From: Nitrospira sp.
GTDB lineage: Bacteria; Nitrospirota; Nitrospiria; Nitrospirales; Nitrospiraceae
Length of the DNA stretch: 64,000 nucleotides
Assembly: GCA_036984305.1 (NCBI GenBank)
Contig: BQWY01000001.1
Span: 2,873,501 to 2,937,500 of the forward strand
Direction of reading: 5' to 3'
Part shown: positions 13,641 to 47,110 of the stretch, one piece after another
How the letters are laid out: each line of letters opens with the position of its first letter
Position numbering within the stretch: the stretch's first letter is position 1
Position numbers and translations under genes: made by a program
The notes under the pieces: model-generated
Told to the model about the DNA's origin: nothing
Database searches by the model: none
The model's input: the letters and a program-made list of their open reading frames with translations, nothing else

Positions 13641-15062
13641 TTAGGCGGCCATGCTGGCGGTGGTTCGCATCGGCGAGCCATCGAGCACATCATTGGGGAC
13701 GATGCCGGCGGTGGAGGGGTGCAGAACTTCGGTAATTCGTCTGACGGTTTTCCCTGATTGTAGGGACAGATCCAACGGCTGGGGCTTCATTGCGACTCCG
13801 CTCTGTGACTCGCGAACGATAAGGATCAGCGGGTTCAGCGTTTGTGTGGGATTCACCTTGGCCACGACGCCGATTTCTCCCGTGCTTAGTTTGACGCATG
13901 ACCCAACGGGATAGATCCCCATACACCGAATAAAGCGCTCCACGCAGGCAGCGTCTAACTGTGTTCGTCGCGCCATATCGTACAAAGTCTGTAGCGCTTG
14001 ATGCGGAGAAACGGCCTTACGGTAGGGACGATCGCTCGTTAACGCGTCGTACACGTCCACCACGCCCGCGATCAGCCCAAATTCGGACAACTCTGGGCGC
14101 TTGTGACCGTGAGGATAGCCGGAACCATCCATACGTTCATGGTGTTCGAGTACAGGCAAAATGACCTCGCCGGAGAGCTTCATCATGTCGGTCAGAAACT
14201 CCACACCCCGCATGACGTGTTGCTTCAGGATTTCCGTTTCTTCGTCTGCGAGTCGTCCCGGCTTGTGCAGCAGCTCAGCCGAGACTTGGGTTTTCCCAAT
14301 GTCGTGCAAGAGAACCCCGAGGCCCAAGGTTTGCAACGCCTCGCGGTTCATTCGAAGATGGCTGCCCAGCGCCATAGCCAACACGCACGTATTGACCGAA
14401 TGATAGTAGGTGTATTCATCAATGCTTTTGAGCCGTGAAAGGCTGGCAAGGGCCACCGGGTTTCGCAGTATGCTGTCCGCCAGGTACCCGACCATGCGAT
14501 TCACCACTTCCATCTCGAAGGCTCGACCCATCTTCGCCTGTTCCAGCGCATGCTTCACCGCGGTTCTGGCCTGATCGTATGCCTGTTGGGCTACCTGCAG
14601 TTCTTCCTCGAATGGCGTAGCGGGAAGTTCCGACGGAGAGGATGCGGCCTCATCGCTTGCGTGCTTGCTGGGCGAAAATGCATCGCTCGTGCGCGACGAG
14701 CTGCAGCGAGCCCCAGCAGTCCGCGTACCGTCTGAGACGACTTCGGGCCGGTCCCGTTGCCCCACCTGCCCTGCCGCTTGAGCGTCCTCCGCTTCGGCCT
14801 CGGTCGGTGCCTCAAGTGGTCTCGGCGCCGGTGGCGATGATGAGACCGACACCACGGTTTGGCTGTCGGTCGGTTCGGACACCTCGATTTCGACCAGCTT
14901 GACGCCGCACGCCTTGAGTGTGACGATTTCGGATTCGCTCGTAATCGTCATCCGGTGTGATAAAAACGGCGTCGCGTACCACGGTCGATCGACGCCCGTC
15001 ACGAGCATTCCGACGGCTAATTCGGAGATGGGAATCTTCGTCTTGTTGACTGACTTACTCAT
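13641..15062 (-). CDS. HD-GYP domain protein, probable c-di-GMP phosphodiesterase, 473 aa
   Basis: The N-terminal 70 residues match the DUF3391-type domain often found before HD-GYP. A polar, low-complexity linker covers about 70-150. The HD-GYP domain follows: LLHDIGK near residues 249-255 supplies the metal-binding HD pair, and HHERMDGSGYP near 306-316 is the full HHExxDGxGYP signature, with DVYDALTSDRPYR later. These are the residues of active HD-GYP phosphodiesterases, which break down cyclic di-GMP and so favour motility. It has no receiver or membrane segment. It lies 45 bases after fliW and probably shares the FliA-type promoter in front of csrA, which would make it a late flagellar gene. 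Confidence 0.88.
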   Translation of the reverse strand: MSKSVNKTKIPISELAVGMLVTGVDRPWYATPFLSHRMTITSESEIVTLKACGVKLVEIEVSEPTDSQTVVSVSSSPPAPRPLEAPTEAEAEDAQAAGQVGQRDRPEVVSDGTRTAGARCSSSRTSDAFSPSKHASDEAASSPSELPATPFEEELQVAQQAYDQARTAVKHALEQAKMGRAFEMEVVNRMVGYLADSILRNPVALASLSRLKSIDEYTYYHSVNTCVLAMALGSHLRMNREALQTLGLGVLLHDIGKTQVSAELLHKPGRLADEETEILKQHVMRGVEFLTDMMKLSGEVILPVLEHHERMDGSGYPHGHKRPELSEFGLIAGVVDVYDALTSDRPYRKAVSPHQALQTLYDMARRTQLDAACVERFIRCMGIYPVGSCVKLSTGEIGVVAKVNPTQTLNPLILIVRESQSGVAMKPQPLDLSLQSGKTVRRITEVLHPSTAGIVPNDVLDGSPMRTTASMAA

Positions 15063-38966: not shown

Positions 38967-39347
38967 ATGCCGGCAGATCCCAACATGAAGATTTTGATCG
39001 TGGACGACATGTCCACGATGCGACGGATCACCAAAAATTTTCTTAAGCAGCTCGGGTTCAACAATCTGGAAGAGGCAGAGAACGGCCAGGATGCATTAAC
39101 CAAGCTGCGTGCCGAGGCCTACGGCTTCGTCGTGTCGGATTGGAACATGCCCGTCATGACCGGGATCGAGATGCTGCGCGCGATTCGTGCGGACGAAAAG
39201 CTCAAGCCCCTGCCGGTCTTGATGGTGACCGCCGAAGCCCAAAAAGAGAACATCGTCGAGGCAGCACAGGCCGGTGTCAATAACTACATCGTCAAGCCGT
39301 TCACGGCGGAGACGCTTCAGGAGAAGATCAACAAGATCTTCAAGTAG
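38967..39347 (+). CDS. cheY: Chemotaxis response regulator CheY
   Basis: A stand-alone receiver of 126 residues with AGGAGG before the ATG. The acidic pair D13-D14, the phosphorylated D58 ([12 protein letters not shown]), T88 and K110 (YIVKPF) are all present, and the sequence is close to enterobacterial CheY ([40 protein letters not shown]). It takes phosphate from CheA and binds FliM/FliN. It is the first gene of the operon and is followed by cheZ, the enterobacterial pairing. Confidence 0.96.
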
Positions 39348-39402
39348 GCAACGAGGGAACGTGTCAGGACCGGCTCAGCACATTGATCCCGGGGAGGCGA
39401 CG

Positions 39403-39993
39403 GTGAACGATCAGAACCGAAAGCTGTACGAAGAACTTGGCACGCTGGCCCGATACATCGAAAACACGATGCATGGGTTTCAAACCGCGCAACAACCTCT
39501 GGAAGCTGCCTCTCAACAGCTCCCTCAGGCCACGGAGCATCTGACAGACCTTCGCCGCATGAGCGAGGAAGCCACCCACAAGGTGATGACACAAACGGAA
39601 GCCATTCAAGACAACAACGCCAAAGTGCTCGGGACCCTGAAGAACGTCCTCGCTCGATTTGAACAGGCCGGGCTTACCGGTCCTCTTGTAGAGGATCTGC
39701 AGACGATACAACGGCTCGTCATCGACGATGAGGCGCGACTCATCGAAATTTTTACGGCGCTGTCCTTTCAGGATCTCTTGGCACAGCGCATCAACAAGCT
39801 GGCCACGGTCCTCACGGACGTGGAGCACAAGCTGCTGGAATTGCTGGTTATATTTGGATCCGCACACAATGGCGCCGCAAAGGTGGATGAGGGCAAGACG
39901 GGCGAAATGCTCAAGTGGCTGGAGGCCTCGAAGACGACGGCGCTGAAACAGGACCTGGTGGACGACGTGTTGAATCAGCTCGGTTTTGGCTGA
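39403..39993 (+). CDS. cheZ: CheY-P phosphatase CheZ
   Basis: I chose the GTG with GGGGAGG about 5 bases upstream, giving 196 residues; a GTG 14 codons earlier is possible. The protein is a long helical hairpin. The catalytic signature DxxxQ appears as FQDLLAQ (D124, Q128), matching D143/Q147 of enterobacterial CheZ. The C-terminus KQDLVDDVLNQLGFG closely matches the CheZ peptide that binds CheY-P. It removes phosphate from CheY-P. CheZ outside Proteobacteria is not universal, so its clear form here is notable. Confidence 0.92.
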   Translation: MNDQNRKLYEELGTLARYIENTMHGFQTAQQPLEAASQQLPQATEHLTDLRRMSEEATHKVMTQTEAIQDNNAKVLGTLKNVLARFEQAGLTGPLVEDLQTIQRLVIDDEARLIEIFTALSFQDLLAQRINKLATVLTDVEHKLLELLVIFGSAHNGAAKVDEGKTGEMLKWLEASKTTALKQDLVDDVLNQLGFG

Positions 39994-40047: not shown

Positions 40048-40353
40048 ATGGAACACGACAAGGCACAGTCGACGACGTTCTCCGACATGTCCGCTCAATC
40101 GAGCAGCGGCTGGACACCGCAAGGCCCGCTGACGATCGCCGAGGCCGGCACGGCACGAGAGGAATTATTGCGACGCGTTGGGGCAAAAACGCCCTTCACA
40201 ATCGATTTAAGCCGCGTGGAGAAACTCGACAGCGCAGGGCTGCAAGTGCTTGTCTCCGCTGTGCAGACGGGCCTCTGCTCAATTTCGCAGATTCCCGACG
40301 CCGTCAAGCAGAAACTCGATCAGGCAGGCTGTCTGTCCCTGTTGGCGCGATAG
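40048..40353 (+). CDS. Small STAS-domain protein
   Basis: A 101-residue protein. After about 20 polar residues comes a STAS-like core: PQGPLTIAEAGTAREELLRR, FTIDLSRVEKLDSAGLQVLV. The serine in LDSAGLQ is at the position phosphorylated in anti-sigma factor antagonists. The fourth strand region is shorter than usual (ISQIPDAVKQKLDQAGCLSL). STAS proteins of this size occur in chemotaxis operons, where their role is not well defined. No partner kinase of the anti-sigma type is encoded in the window. It lies between the two phosphatase-like genes. Confidence 0.75.
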   Translation: MEHDKAQSTTFSDMSAQSSSGWTPQGPLTIAEAGTAREELLRRVGAKTPFTIDLSRVEKLDSAGLQVLVSAVQTGLCSISQIPDAVKQKLDQAGCLSLLAR

Positions 40354-40428
40354 CCATTCGCGCGAAGGACGACCTCGGTACGGTCCAATGGGGCGACGGC
40401 CTGAATTTCTCGCATGCAAGGGGATGCA

Positions 40429-41142
40429 GTGAGCTTCGGACTTGTCTGGGTGCTGTGTATCGGGATGGGGGTGGGGATAGGAGTTGGCCTTGGTTACCGG
40501 CTGTGGGGCTCCGGCCCCCGAACGACGCCACCGAGTCACACTCTCGCGGGGCATCCCACGCAGCGGGAAAAGGCTTGGGAGCATCTCGCAGCGGATGCGG
40601 TTCCCCTCATTCCGATTCTGACAAGGCAGTTGGAGGATGTCATGGCACAAACCGAAGCGGCGGCCTTGAAGATCAATGAACGCATCCTGGCCATGGCGTC
40701 GCGCGCCGAACACCAGGCGGGACGCATGGGCGCCACCCTGGCTTCCCTACGTTCCATGCCCGGCTTGGACCATTGCTCGCTGGAGGAACTGCGCCAGACC
40801 ACCGACTCGGTGACCGCCTCGGCGAGGGACTTGGCGTTGGATGTCGCCCAGATCGTCATGGCGCTCCAGTACCAGGACATCACCAAACAACAGCTGCAGC
40901 ACGTCGTTCAACCCCTGGAACATCTGAAGGCTACCTTGCAGGCGTTGGTGCGCGGCGAAGGGGCCATGGACGAACGAGCACAGGGGCTGCTCGAAGCCCT
41001 CCACCAGAGCTATACGATGGAAAGCGAGCGGGCGATCATGGCCCATGCCCTGATGGGCACCGCACCGATTGCACGGTCATCCGGACCTGCCGTCGGCACG
41101 AATGCCGAACGGGAGGACGCGGGAGACGTCACCTTATTCTGA
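40429..41142 (+). CDS. Membrane-anchored CheZ-like protein ending in DVTLF
   Basis: A GTG start with AAGGGG upstream gives 237 residues; an ATG five codons earlier lacks a ribosome site. Residues 3-24 form one membrane helix (VWVLCIGMGVGIGVGLGYRL), and the rest is cytoplasmic and helical, with two long helices around 60-110 and 117-175. Near the end of the second is VMALQYQDITKQQLQHVV, in which D150-I-T-K-Q154 follows the CheZ DxxxQ signature, with the same YQ/FQ preceding it. The protein ends AGDVTLF; CheD of this operon ends TDVTLF. I infer a membrane-bound CheY-P phosphatase or an array-associated accessory protein. Database hits may label such proteins as chemotaxis proteins without a function. 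Confidence 0.7.
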   Translation: MSFGLVWVLCIGMGVGIGVGLGYRLWGSGPRTTPPSHTLAGHPTQREKAWEHLAADAVPLIPILTRQLEDVMAQTEAAALKINERILAMASRAEHQAGRMGATLASLRSMPGLDHCSLEELRQTTDSVTASARDLALDVAQIVMALQYQDITKQQLQHVVQPLEHLKATLQALVRGEGAMDERAQGLLEALHQSYTMESERAIMAHALMGTAPIARSSGPAVGTNAEREDAGDVTLF

Positions 41143-41183: not shown

Positions 41184-41555
41184 ATGGGACAAACCGTGCT
41201 GGTCGTCGATGATTCACCAACCATGCGTCAGATGGTCGCGTTCACGCTCACGAGCGCGGGGTTCCAGGTTGTCGAAGCCGGCGACGGCAAGGACGCCCTG
41301 GCAAAGCTGAGCACGAGCCTCCAACCGGCGCTGGTGGTAACCGACCTCAACATGCCGGTCATGGACGGCCTGACCCTCATCAAAGAACTCCGCAAGCTGC
41401 CCCAGCTGAAATTCGTGCCGATTCTCATGTTGACCACTGAATCGTCGACCGACAAAAAGGCGGAAGGACGCTCCGCCGGCGCCACCGGATGGATCGTCAA
41501 ACCTTTCAATCCCGACCAGTTCATGAAGGTCGTTAAAAAGGTGTTGCCAGAATGA
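41184..41555 (+). CDS. Second CheY-type response regulator
   Basis: A 123-residue receiver domain with GAGGAGG before the ATG. The acidic pair is D9-D10, the phosphorylation site D54 (VVTDLNMPVMDG), followed by T84-T85 and K106 (WIVKPF). It is of the type usually encoded directly before cheA and differs clearly from CheY at 38967 (for example LMLTTESSTDKKAEGRSAGA). It may serve as phosphate sink for CheA or as a second output. Its end overlaps the cheA start by ATGA-type coupling. Confidence 0.93.
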   Translation: MGQTVLVVDDSPTMRQMVAFTLTSAGFQVVEAGDGKDALAKLSTSLQPALVVTDLNMPVMDGLTLIKELRKLPQLKFVPILMLTTESSTDKKAEGRSAGATGWIVKPFNPDQFMKVVKKVLPE

Positions 41556-43768
41556 GCAGCGATCTCTCCCAATTCAACGACGCGTTCTTCGAAGAAGCCT
41601 CCGAGCACATGACGAGCATTGAAGACGGGTTGCTGCAGCTCGAGCAGCGTCCCTCCGATTTGGAACTGCTCGCCACGATCTTTCGCTCCGCCCATTCCAT
41701 CAAGGGAGTGGCCGGCATGCTGGGGTTCACCGGCGTGGCCCAGTTTACCCATAAGATGGAGACCTTACTCGATCAACTGCGCAACGGGAAGCTGGCGGTC
41801 ACCCCCCCAGTCGCGGATCTCTTGTTGCGATGTACGGATGTCTTGAAGGCTCTGATTGGAGAGGCCAAAGGGGGTGAGAAGCCCGACGCTGCACAGGTAG
41901 GTCATCTTGAACAACAACTGGCCGACTGCGCCGCGGGTAAGGTACTCACCGCAAACCAGGCTCCATCGGCTCCTGCCCCTGTCGTTCAGGTTTCGGCAAC
42001 AACCGGGCCGACCGCGCTCGACGCCCCGCCCCACCCGATGCAATTCACGATCGGCTGGACTCCGCCGGGCAACATCTTCCAACTCGGGCTCGACCCCATG
42101 CAGGTCATCAAGGACCTTCGCAATCTCGGAGCGGTTTCTCACCTGAAGGTGGACGCCGGTAAGCTCCCGGCCTTGGACACGATGGATCCGGAGCAATGTT
42201 ACCTCGCATGGTCCTTGGTCCTCGATACCATCAAGCCGCAGGAAGTGGTCGAAGCGGTGTTCGAATTCGTCAAGGACGACAGCATCTTGAGCGTGCTCGA
42301 CACGACGCCCGATCCTCCCGTCGCCGCTCCTTCGGCAGCGGTCGCGGCGCCGTCCCCCTCACACGTTAGACGCACCGCCGACGACGAAGGTGACGTGAAG
42401 CCATTGGGCGCGATCCTCGTTGAGACCGGCGCGGTCTCGCAGGAGGAGCTGAACAACGCGCTCGCTCAACAGAAGAAAGTCGGGGAAATCCTCGTCGAGC
42501 AACACGTGATCACGCCTCAACAGGTCGCCCAGGCACTTGAAACACAGAAGCACGCAGAGGCCACGGCTCAGGCCAAGAAAAGCGATACGGCGACGATCCG
42601 CGTGGACACGGCCAAAATCGACCGGCTGATCAATCTTGTGGGCGAGCTCGTCATCACCCAATCGATGCTGACGGACCTGGGCAAGAACTTTTCCCCGGTG
42701 AAGGTTCCCCTCTTGCTGGAACACATGGCGCAACTTGAGCGCAACACGCGAGAGATTCAGGAGCGTGTCATGGGTATCCGGATGCTGCAGATCGGCACCG
42801 CGTTCCAGCGCTTTCCTCGACTGGTCCGTGACTTGGCTCAAAAGAGCGGGAAGAAACTGCAACTGGTGACCGGCGGCGAGGAAACCGAACTGGACAAGGG
42901 CGTCATTGAAAGCATCGGCGATCCGTTGACCCATCTCATCCGCAACTCCGCCGATCATGGTCTGGAGCCACCGTCGGAGCGCACGGCCGCTGGGAAGCAT
43001 GAGATCGGCACGATCAGACTGAATGCCTATCACGAAGGCGGCAGCATCTGTATTACCGTCGAGGACGATGGCCGTGGCCTTAATCGAGACAGAATTCTCG
43101 CGAAGGCCTTGAAGCAAGGCGTCATCCAGGAAGGCGAGAAGCTCTCCGACGACCAGATTTGGCAACTCATCTTTCAACCGGGCTTTTCCACCGCCGAGAA
43201 AGTCACGGATGTGTCGGGCCGCGGCGTGGGCATGGACGTGGTCAAGCGGAACATCGAAGCACTCGGGGGAACGGTCGGGATCAAGACCACGACCGGCAAG
43301 GGCACCATCTTTACCCTCAAGCTGCCCCTGACGCTCGCCATCATCGACGGCATGACGGTGCGAGTGGGCAATGAGCTGTACATCATCCCTCTCGTGTCCA
43401 TCGTCGAATCGATCCAGCCGAAAACCGATACGGTTCGCACCATCGCCGACCAAGCGGAGCTGATCAACGTACGGGGGGCGTACCACCCGATCTTGCGGCT
43501 CCATCAGGCCTTCAATATCGATCCCGAACATACCGATCTCTTGGAAAGCATCCTGGTGATCGTTGAAACCGAGGGGGAGCGAGTGGCCGTGATGGTGGAC
43601 GAATTGGTCGGCCAGCAACAGGTCGTGATTAAGAGCCTGGAGAAAAACTTTCGCAAAGTTCCAGGAGTCGCCGGTGCCACGATTCTCGGTGACGGCACCG
43701 TGGGCTTCATCCTGGATATCCGCGGGATGTTGGATCTTACCCGAAGAAGCGAATTGAAGGTCGCGTAG
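41552..43768 (+). CDS. cheA: Chemotaxis histidine kinase CheA with inserted MshEN-like motifs, 738 aa
   Basis: The Hpt domain (1-105) carries H48 in FRSAHSIKGVAGMLGF. A CheY/CheB-binding-type domain follows at about 165-250 (PPGNIFQLGLDPMQVIKDLR; ECYLAW). Residues about 284-333 hold two 24-residue repeats of the pattern LGxILVExxxxxxxxLxxALxxQ, like motifs of MshEN domains. Dimerisation begins near 355 (VDTAKIDRLINLVGELVITQ). The ATPase has HLIRNSADHGLE (N box), VEDDGRGLNRD (G1) and GRGVGMDVV (G2). The CheW-like domain occupies about 600-735. It phosphorylates CheY proteins and CheB. Confidence 0.95.
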   Translation: MSSDLSQFNDAFFEEASEHMTSIEDGLLQLEQRPSDLELLATIFRSAHSIKGVAGMLGFTGVAQFTHKMETLLDQLRNGKLAVTPPVADLLLRCTDVLKALIGEAKGGEKPDAAQVGHLEQQLADCAAGKVLTANQAPSAPAPVVQVSATTGPTALDAPPHPMQFTIGWTPPGNIFQLGLDPMQVIKDLRNLGAVSHLKVDAGKLPALDTMDPEQCYLAWSLVLDTIKPQEVVEAVFEFVKDDSILSVLDTTPDPPVAAPSAAVAAPSPSHVRRTADDEGDVKPLGAILVETGAVSQEELNNALAQQKKVGEILVEQHVITPQQVAQALETQKHAEATAQAKKSDTATIRVDTAKIDRLINLVGELVITQSMLTDLGKNFSPVKVPLLLEHMAQLERNTREIQERVMGIRMLQIGTAFQRFPRLVRDLAQKSGKKLQLVTGGEETELDKGVIESIGDPLTHLIRNSADHGLEPPSERTAAGKHEIGTIRLNAYHEGGSICITVEDDGRGLNRDRILAKALKQGVIQEGEKLSDDQIWQLIFQPGFSTAEKVTDVSGRGVGMDVVKRNIEALGGTVGIKTTTGKGTIFTLKLPLTLAIIDGMTVRVGNELYIIPLVSIVESIQPKTDTVRTIADQAELINVRGAYHPILRLHQAFNIDPEHTDLLESILVIVETEGERVAVMVDELVGQQQVVIKSLEKNFRKVPGVAGATILGDGTVGFILDIRGMLDLTRRSELKVA

Positions 43769-44389: not shown

Positions 44390-47110
44390 ATGAGTAAGGC
44401 GTGGGCCAATTTCAATCTGACGACAAAGATTCTCAGCGTGACCATTCTCACCATCCTGGGTGTGATGGGAGCACTTGCCCTCTGGCTGAGCGGGCAGATG
44501 CGGAACGACATGATGGAACTGGTCCGTGTTCGCAGCATCGTGATCCAACGCCAAATCGAAGTGGCTCGGGCGTACATTGCCAGCCAGTTCGTCGCAAAAA
44601 TCAAGAACGCAGGCGAAGGGAAGATCAAGATCGCCCAAGAACATAGCGCCCCCGACACCGTACCGCTGCCGGCCACGGCCACTCGTGAAATGGCTGAAAC
44701 GCTTGCAAAGGAAGGGATCTTCAACGCGCGGGTCATCAGCGAAGCTCCACTGAATCCCGCGAACAAACCGGAGCCGGGGTTTGAAGAGGAAGCGATCAAG
44801 GCACTGGCTGCGGGCGAAACGGAGCGGATCACGGTTGAACCGATCAACGGCGTGATGACCTTTCGCCGGATGACCCCGGACATCATTCAGAACCAGGCCT
44901 GCATCAGCTGTCACACCGACAAGAAGATGGGCGAGATGGTCGGTGCCGTGTCGGTTCAAGTTCCATTGACGCTGCCGTTGGCGCGGCTCGATCGGAACAT
45001 CAACATGCTGTACACGGCGGCTGCCGCCGCGGCCCTTATCCTGGGGTCGTTGCTATTCATCGTCGTTCGTAGACAAGTCATCAAGCCGGTCCAACATCTT
45101 CACGATGTCGTCACCCAATTGGCGAACGGCGACTACGGTGCGCGCTTGAACGTCACCGCTCAGGACGAGATTGGTCAAACCGGTCGAGCCTTCAATTCCA
45201 TGGCCCAGCAGCTTGCCAAATCAATGGAAGAACAGAAACAAGCGGTAGCCGAACAGCAAAAGGCGTCACAGCTTGCCCAAGCCCAAGCGGCGGAAGTTAA
45301 GGGCGTCACGAACGCGATCGGGAAATCTCAAGCTGTCATCGAATTCAACATGGACGGAACCATTCTCGGCGCCAATGACAACTTCCTTTCGGGCCTCGGC
45401 TATACCATGGCCGAGCTCAAGGGCCAACACCATCGGATGTTCTGCGAGCCTGCTTACACGAACAGCCCGGAGTATGCCGCGTTCTGGCAAAAACTCAACC
45501 GCGGCGAATTCGATTCCGGTGTCTACAAACGGCTGAGCAAGGGCGGCAAGGAAATCTGGCTCCAAGCCTCTTATAACCCCATCGTCGATGTTGCGGGGAA
45601 AATCTACAAGGTCATGCAGTTCTCGACTGACGTGACCGCGGAGAAAAACCGCAATGCGGAGTTCGAGGGGAAACTCGCCGCCATCAACAAGGCCCAAGCC
45701 GCCATCGAATTCAACCTGGAGGGGACGGTCCTCAGCGCGAACGACAATTTCTCGAGCGTCATGGGCTACACCCTGGCCGAAATCAAGGGCCAGAATCATC
45801 GTATGTTCTGCGAACCGGCCTATACAAACACTCCCGAGTACAGCGCGTTCTGGGCCAAGCTGAATCGGGGTGAGTTCGACGCAGGGGTTTACAAGCGGAT
45901 CGGCAAGGGCGGCAGGGAGATTTGGATCCAGGCCTCCTACAATCCTATTCTGAACGCCAACGGTAAGGTCTACAAGGTCGTCAAGTATGCCAGCGACGTC
46001 ACGGCACAGAAAAAAGCCCAGGCGGAAATGGAACAGCTCGTCGCCGAAGCTCAGTCCGTCCTGGGGCGTCTAGCCGAGAACGATTTGACGCAATCGATGG
46101 CGGGCACCTACCAGGGTGAGCTGGACAAGATCAAGGCCAGCATCAACGGGGTGGTCCACAATCTCACCCAAACGATCACCTTGGTTCGGAACGCCGTGGA
46201 GAGTGTCACCACCGGAGCCGAGGAGATCACGAAGGGCAATGAGGATCTCTCGCAGCGCACCAGCCAGCAGGCCAGTGCGTTGGAGGAGACCAGTGCGTCC
46301 ATGGAGGAAATGACCTCCACGGTCAAACAGAACGCCGACAATGCCAAGCAGGCCAATCAGTTGGCGATCGCTGCCCGCGACATCGCCGACAAGGGCGGCT
46401 CCATTACCTCCCGCGCCGTCAGCGCCATGGAGGAAATCAACAAGAGCAGCAAGAAGATCGCCGACATCATCACGGTGATCGACGAGATCGCCTTCCAGAC
46501 CAACCTCTTGGCCCTCAACGCCGCAGTGGAGGCCGCGCGCGCGGGCGAGCATGGTCGAGGCTTCGCGGTCGTGGCCACCGAGGTCCGCAACCTCGCCCAG
46601 CGTTCCGCCACGGCCGCCAAGGAGATCAAAGGGCTGATCAACGAGTCCATCCAACGAGTCAGCGACGGGTCCGAACTGGTGAACCAGTCGGGCAAGACGC
46701 TGGACGAGATCGTCAACTCTGTGAAGCGGGTGACCGACATCATCGCAGAGATCGCCGCGGCCTCTCAGGAGCAGGCCCAGGGAGTCGATCAGGTGAATAA
46801 GGCCATCATGCAGATGGACGAGACGACACAGCAGAACGCAGCTCTGGTTGAGGAGACCACCAGCGCCAGCCATTCGATGAAGGAACAGGCCAAAGAGCTC
46901 ATGCAGCAGGTGAGCACCTTCAAGGTTGCAGGCAGCGATGCCCCCCGTGCCACCGCGCGTCAGGCGGTCCCTCTGGCTCCGACGACGGCCAAGCCGCCGG
47001 TAAAGAACCAAGCCAAGCCGGCCTCGAAGCCGGTGGTCGAACCCACCGGCGTGGGCAGCGGCAACGGCCACGACCGGCGTCGCAAGGACGACGACTTCGA
47101 GGAGTTTTAG
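44390..47110 (+). CDS. Chemoreceptor with c-type heme site, tandem PAS domains and CheR-binding tail, 906 aa
   Basis: AGGAGG lies before the ATG. Membrane helix 1 (about 12-33) and helix 2 (about 206-228) bracket a periplasmic domain of the DUF3365/Tll0287 type with C171-I-S-C174-H175, a covalent heme-binding motif. A HAMP domain follows (about 229-283), then two PAS domains (about 306-425 and 428-547) that are nearly repeats of each other, a linker with a second HAMP-like piece, and the methyl-accepting signalling hairpin with IAFQTNLLALNAAVEAARAG. The C-terminus DDFEEF fits the CheR/CheB-tethering pentapeptide x-[aromatic]-x-x-[aromatic]. Likely senses redox state, oxygen or a gas. Confidence 0.93.
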   Translation: MSKAWANFNLTTKILSVTILTILGVMGALALWLSGQMRNDMMELVRVRSIVIQRQIEVARAYIASQFVAKIKNAGEGKIKIAQEHSAPDTVPLPATATREMAETLAKEGIFNARVISEAPLNPANKPEPGFEEEAIKALAAGETERITVEPINGVMTFRRMTPDIIQNQACISCHTDKKMGEMVGAVSVQVPLTLPLARLDRNINMLYTAAAAAALILGSLLFIVVRRQVIKPVQHLHDVVTQLANGDYGARLNVTAQDEIGQTGRAFNSMAQQLAKSMEEQKQAVAEQQKASQLAQAQAAEVKGVTNAIGKSQAVIEFNMDGTILGANDNFLSGLGYTMAELKGQHHRMFCEPAYTNSPEYAAFWQKLNRGEFDSGVYKRLSKGGKEIWLQASYNPIVDVAGKIYKVMQFSTDVTAEKNRNAEFEGKLAAINKAQAAIEFNLEGTVLSANDNFSSVMGYTLAEIKGQNHRMFCEPAYTNTPEYSAFWAKLNRGEFDAGVYKRIGKGGREIWIQASYNPILNANGKVYKVVKYASDVTAQKKAQAEMEQLVAEAQSVLGRLAENDLTQSMAGTYQGELDKIKASINGVVHNLTQTITLVRNAVESVTTGAEEITKGNEDLSQRTSQQASALEETSASMEEMTSTVKQNADNAKQANQLAIAARDIADKGGSITSRAVSAMEEINKSSKKIADIITVIDEIAFQTNLLALNAAVEAARAGEHGRGFAVVATEVRNLAQRSATAAKEIKGLINESIQRVSDGSELVNQSGKTLDEIVNSVKRVTDIIAEIAAASQEQAQGVDQVNKAIMQMDETTQQNAALVEETTSASHSMKEQAKELMQQVSTFKVAGSDAPRATARQAVPLAPTTAKPPVKNQAKPASKPVVEPTGVGSGNGHDRRRKDDDFEEF

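Follow-up and report, generated by a model that had tools for sequence, protein, structure and literature searches.

Why should a chemotaxis kinase carry a motif best known from receptors of cyclic di-GMP (c-di-GMP)? CheA itself is usually described as lacking an input domain and as relying on chemoreceptors. The cheA gene considered here encodes a protein of 738 amino acids (positions 41552..43768, forward strand) and lies in a 64,000-nucleotide stretch of a Nitrospira sp. genome, referred to as the window; among named records, the closest to this CheA come from Nitrospira. A preliminary description of this DNA had placed two adjacent 24-residue units of MshEN type between the regulator-binding region and the dimerisation domain of the kinase, and had proposed that CheA may read c-di-GMP. 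That MshEN-type motifs occur fused to a CheA kinase is in itself already known, since Wang et al. (2016; PMC5013675, section 12) name such MshEN-CheA fusions; their main text only lists them, and neither a shortened spacer nor a tested CheA was found there. Berry et al. (2023; PMC10782961), surveying the domains that CheA can have beyond its four core ones, list P2, CheY-like and CheC/CheX only, and the MshEN module is not among them. A literature search that covered few subscription journals found no experiment on an MshEN-CheA or on a c-di-GMP-binding CheA. The question is what such a module does in CheA, and whether it could hold c-di-GMP in the known manner.

A compact MshEN variant between P2 and P3

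The four core domains of a CheA kinase, namely Hpt, H-kinase_dim, HATPase_c and CheW, all exceed the Pfam gathering cut-offs in this protein, which also matches the NCBIfam entry PRK10547 (CheA). All features of the gene are given here on the forward strand. The P1/Hpt domain (residues 10-98, 41579..41845; PF01627, 64 bits) is followed by a P2-like region (residues about 161-245, 42032..42286), which has no P2 match in the Pfam scan and is recognisable as a conserved block between variable linkers among 33 Nitrospiraceae CheAs. Motif 1, PLGAILVETGAVSQEELNNALAQQ, occupies residues 284-307 (42401..42472), the single residue K308 forms the spacer (42473..42475), and motif 2, KVGEILVEQHVITPQQVAQALETQ, occupies residues 309-332 (42476..42547). 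A short linker (residues 333-346, 42548..42589), 53% identical and with some gaps among the Nitrospiraceae sequences, leads to the P3 dimerisation domain (residues 347-408, 42590..42775; H-kinase_dim PF02895, 69.8 bits), after which come the P4 HATPase_c domain (residues 459-594, 42926..43333; PF02518, 66.7 bits) and the P5 CheW-like domain (residues 600-728, 43349..43735; PF01584, 102 bits). Both the two adjacent units and their position, behind the P2-like stretch and ahead of H-kinase_dim, thus agree with what had been described.

The gene belongs to a chemotaxis block with CheZ, STAS, CheW, MCP, CheD and CheB. Two CheZ-like genes stand upstream (39274-39993 and 40414-41142, both forward), the second with a weak PF04344 match (29.8 bits, cut-off 30.7), and a gene for a STAS protein (40048-40353) lies between them. 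In the MCP adjoining cheA (44390-47110, forward), a HAMP domain and two nearly identical PAS repeats accompany an N-terminal Tll0287-like domain that bears the haem-type motif CxxCH (CISCH); the protein is possibly a haem- or redox-sensing receptor.

The kinship of the two units to MshEN, which the preliminary description had left to an HMM comparison, is well founded. The curated profile NF053729 ("c-di-GMP_motif, MshE-related") matches CheA residues 284-332 at 50.3 bits (cut-off 38, E=1.5e-13) and the excised segment alone at 57.1 bits; all 51 of the 51 related CheA modules match it at E <= 0.01. In the whole genome, the CheA module is the sole place above the NF053729 cut-off. One further match falls below it. 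At locus L002 (G000:C1:1477256-1477402), a PilB/GspE-type ATPase that contains a GAF domain carries a degenerate MshEN motif of canonical spacing, which scores 28 bits and so stays under the cut-off. Searches against solved structures point the same way, both with the single sequence (PilF 2e-15, MshE 4e-4) and with a profile of the 51 CheA modules (5HTL, MshE with c-di-GMP, E=5e-10; Thermus thermophilus PilF, 7e-25). Aligned by hhalign with 22 canonical PilB-type modules, the CheA modules give a probability of 98.7% and a single gap of four residues, located exactly at the spacer. Residues 284-332 are a real, conserved and compact variant of MshEN. Membership of DUF4388 (PATAN) was considered and rejected, as only a fragment of the profile is covered (about positions 46-91 of 122), with 18.6 bits in the full-length CheA, under the cut-off of 25, and 25.5-25.7 bits once the segment is excised; further weak Pfam matches, one of them to the fumarase C-terminus, were put down to chance or to general helical-hairpin likeness.

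The canonical module consists of two 24-residue motifs and a five-residue spacer, 24+5+24=53 residues (Wang et al. 2016, PMC5013675), and not of motifs about 23 residues apart, as had been assumed. The CheA module has 24+1+24=49 residues and so departs from that definition, and the deviation that matters, read from the sequence, is the spacer of one residue instead of five, a four-residue deletion exactly at that point. Compared with MshEN_N (V. cholerae MshE 1-62, 5HTL; NF053729), the LG, LV, G, L, L and Q positions and most contact residues are held in common, whereas the CheA module has the short spacer, P and K at the motif starts, H at the Gly10 position of motif 2 and no MshEN_C subdomain. 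Relative to the consensus, motif 1 has P for R at position 1 and A for a hydrophobic L/V/I at position 11. The canonical contacts with the ligand are made in both motifs by Arg1, Leu2, Gly3, Leu17, Leu21 and Gln24, of which motif 1 lacks just Arg1; motif 2 has K1, V2, H10 and V17 in place of R, L, G and L, and keeps G3, L6, L21 and Q24. The replacement of the leading Arg was correctly noted at the outset. It was discarded as an argument against binding, since proven binders also lack Arg1 (PMC11731258): in T. thermophilus PilF, GSPII-B has Lys/Leu at position 1 and nevertheless binds c-di-GMP at 6 nM, and GSPII-C, also a binder, has Pro there in one motif. These PilF domains resemble the CheA module in that at least one motif is without Arg1; unlike it, they have a canonical two-motif domain, an MshEN_C-type subdomain and a solved bundle.

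Conservation, spread and spacing

Across the 33 Nitrospiraceae CheAs, the module aligns without gaps at 75% mean pairwise identity, against 27% for the linker upstream and 53% for the linker downstream; for comparison, the P2-like region reaches 57%, P1 76% and P3 88%. A stretch conserved to this degree between drifting linkers is therefore a selected, folded part of the protein rather than filler. Among the most conserved positions of the module are those that hold c-di-GMP in MshEN, namely Gly3, Gln24 and the hydrophobic residues 2, 17 and 21. In 68 unique compact CheA modules (spacing 25, counted from motif start to motif start), Gly3 is present in both motifs of all 68, and Gln24 in 63/68 for motif 1 and 68/68 for motif 2. 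Position 1 varies among P, K, R and other residues in motif 1 and among R, K and P in motif 2, and just 29 of the 68 still have Gly10 in motif 2, H, K or Q taking its place in the clade of this CheA.

With a profile made of the module and the start of P3, the arrangement was detected in 129 of 296 Nitrospirota genomes (about 44% of those sampled), in 55 of 349 Pseudomonadota genomes (16% of those sampled; the phylum of a Marinomonas locus) and in 14 of 199 Acidobacteriota genomes (the phylum to which an Acidobacteriota locus belongs). Across CheAs, the motif starts lie 22, 25, 26, 27, 28, 29, 30, 31, 32, 36 or 42 residues apart; most have 25, 22 marks a Pseudomonadota group, and the canonical 29 is confined to L065 and L178, which form a small group. 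A maximum-likelihood tree was built from the CheA core with the module excluded and has some long branches and unsure deep joins; on it, the spacing changed at least 12 times (15 changes are needed, and 12 is the minimum for the number of labels). In the spacing-22 modules, Gln24 of motif 1 is absent in 22/22, while Gln24 of motif 2 and the remainder of the module are kept. These Pseudomonadota CheAs (L110, L113-L127, L129-L135) miss the end of motif 1, including the Gln, and the module always adjoins P3; in all spacing classes read, the dimerisation helices are no more than about 15-30 residues away. Genomes of the Nitrospira family also contain a second, shorter class of CheA with a module spacing of 32 or 28 (L166, L168-L172, L082, L176), so that differently spaced CheA modules are possible within one genome. 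The variable spacing and the loss of Gln24, with the hairpins still recognisable, imply that what CheA conserves is the hairpin and not a two-hairpin clamp of fixed geometry.

Predicted fold of the compact module

The preliminary description had named a structure prediction of a plain helical linker without the MshEN fold as a finding that would speak against it. AlphaFold2, applied to the compact CheA module with a 51-row alignment and run without ligand and without a dimer, returned four helices with a mean pLDDT of 76.6 and a pTM of 0.40, the final helix extending through residue 345. The best structural match of this model is 5HTL, at TM 0.39, rmsd 10.5 A and probability 0.33; a VIA-align comparison gave no MshEN chain at Z>=2, an absence that proves nothing by itself. 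A canonical PilB module of the same length, modelled as a control from a shallower alignment of 22 rows, reached pLDDT 84.3 and pTM 0.66 and matched 5HTL at rmsd 1.3 A, TM 0.78, probability 1.00 and Z 10.1. The outcome is thus divided: helices are predicted, and homology and conservation speak against a plain linker, but the MshEN bundle is not predicted for the CheA module.

Judging from the rmsd, the single hairpins probably agree with 5HTL and their packing does not. In the models, helix 2 covers residues 18-27 (10 residues) in CheA and 18-31 (14 residues) in the control, so that its last turn appears to be lost with the short spacer, which would leave Gln24 outside the helix. The model is of moderate confidence and constitutes evidence, short of proof, against the canonical clamp.

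Ligand clamp or docking element

Taken together, these observations suggest that the module is mainly a structural or docking element of the P2-P3 linker and not a canonical c-di-GMP receptor, a reading to which we give about even chances of being right. CheA carries two MshEN-type hairpins, predicted to be helical, as an accessory module about 15 residues from the P3 dimerisation helices, in which a spacer four residues short would cost helix 2 its final turn. Such hairpins could most likely not fold together, within one chain, into the four-helix clamp by which MshE and PilF grip a single c-di-GMP, and the module might instead shape the reach of P1/P2 to the kinase core or offer a binding surface. 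The analysis shows the homology, position, conservation and spacing of the module and its predicted helices; the loss of the clamp is suggested by a model of modest confidence together with its control, and the docking or linker role is what we infer. In favour of this reading as a whole stand the homology, the conserved island at close to the identity of P1, the shorter spacer and predicted helix 2, the contrast in TM between compact and control models, the repeated changes of spacing and the consistent loss of one Gln24 in the Pseudomonadota group. Against this reading stand the low pTM, which makes the hairpin packing uncertain, and the high conservation of the c-di-GMP-holding residues, for which a mere linker would have no need; moreover, the curated NF053729 labels the stretch as c-di-GMP-binding, and enzymes of c-di-GMP turnover are ample in the genome. 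A plain helical linker with chance resemblance, as which a model with helices but no confident tertiary fold might be read, is hardly credible: E-values of 1e-13 to 1e-25, conservation between variable linkers and recurrence in three phyla rule out chance.

A working receptor in essentially the MshEN mode, in which the ligand would close the hairpins despite the short spacer and change the kinase output, is unlikely, although much about the module is compatible with it. It scores above the NF053729 cut-off, retains Gly3 throughout and Gln24 almost throughout in the compact class, and has P or K where proven binders have them too; an isolated MshEN_N of 62 residues is enough for binding at 0.35 uM. 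The genome encodes about 6 GGDEF proteins, 8 HD-GYP-type proteins and 34 PilZ matches, and c-di-GMP signalling therefore exists in this organism. One HD-GYP-type protein (HD_5 with DUF3391; 13641..15062, reverse strand; PF13487 99.5 bits, PF11871 90 bits), a possible c-di-GMP phosphodiesterase, is indeed found in the flagellar gene block of the window; the regulon that it had been proposed to share with cheA is a putative one. The bundle, predicted for the control, was not predicted for CheA; motif 2 has exchanged Gly10 for H, K or Q in this clade, and the spacing is not conserved. Gly3 and the two Gln matter for binding, and the little-changed relatives PilF GSPII-A and XpsE do not bind. Holding c-di-GMP between two CheA chains, hairpin 1 of one chain pairing with hairpin 2 of the other beside P3 since so short a spacer would not let a chain double back on itself, would reconcile the retained half-site residues with an unpredicted one-chain clamp and would suit a module about 15-30 residues from the dimerisation helices; we infer this geometry rather than observe it, the spacing-22 modules lack one Gln, and the arrangement is improbable. 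Equally in need of caution is a reading in which the module docks another protein that binds c-di-GMP, for instance a PilZ protein, through which CheA would read c-di-GMP indirectly. The PilZ matches in the genome would allow it, and in X. citri PilB an MshEN-like N-domain that has lost the ligand residues forms complexes with PilZ; those contacts, however, lie on the surface of the ND1 (MshEN_C) subdomain, which is absent from CheA (PMC8389850), and we regard this route as distinctly improbable.

Of the original proposal that CheA may read c-di-GMP, the MshEN kinship and most contact positions stand, while the model at this spacing shows no one-chain clamp, and neither the spacing nor one of the Gln residues is constant across CheAs. 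Sensing by the known binding mode is accordingly quite doubtful, and direct binding in any geometry, within one chain or between chains, is a minority prospect, if a substantial one. Should c-di-GMP not be bound, the case would serve as a warning that NF053729, by naming such proteins c-di-GMP-binding, over-annotates compact variants; the profile may already do so for CheA, which it names a binder even with a spacer shortened by four residues. Should it be bound, chemotaxis and the motile-sessile switch would be joined in one protein, and if it were held between two chains, the module would represent a direct, previously undescribed c-di-GMP input to the chemotaxis kinase of Nitrospirota and many Pseudomonadota.
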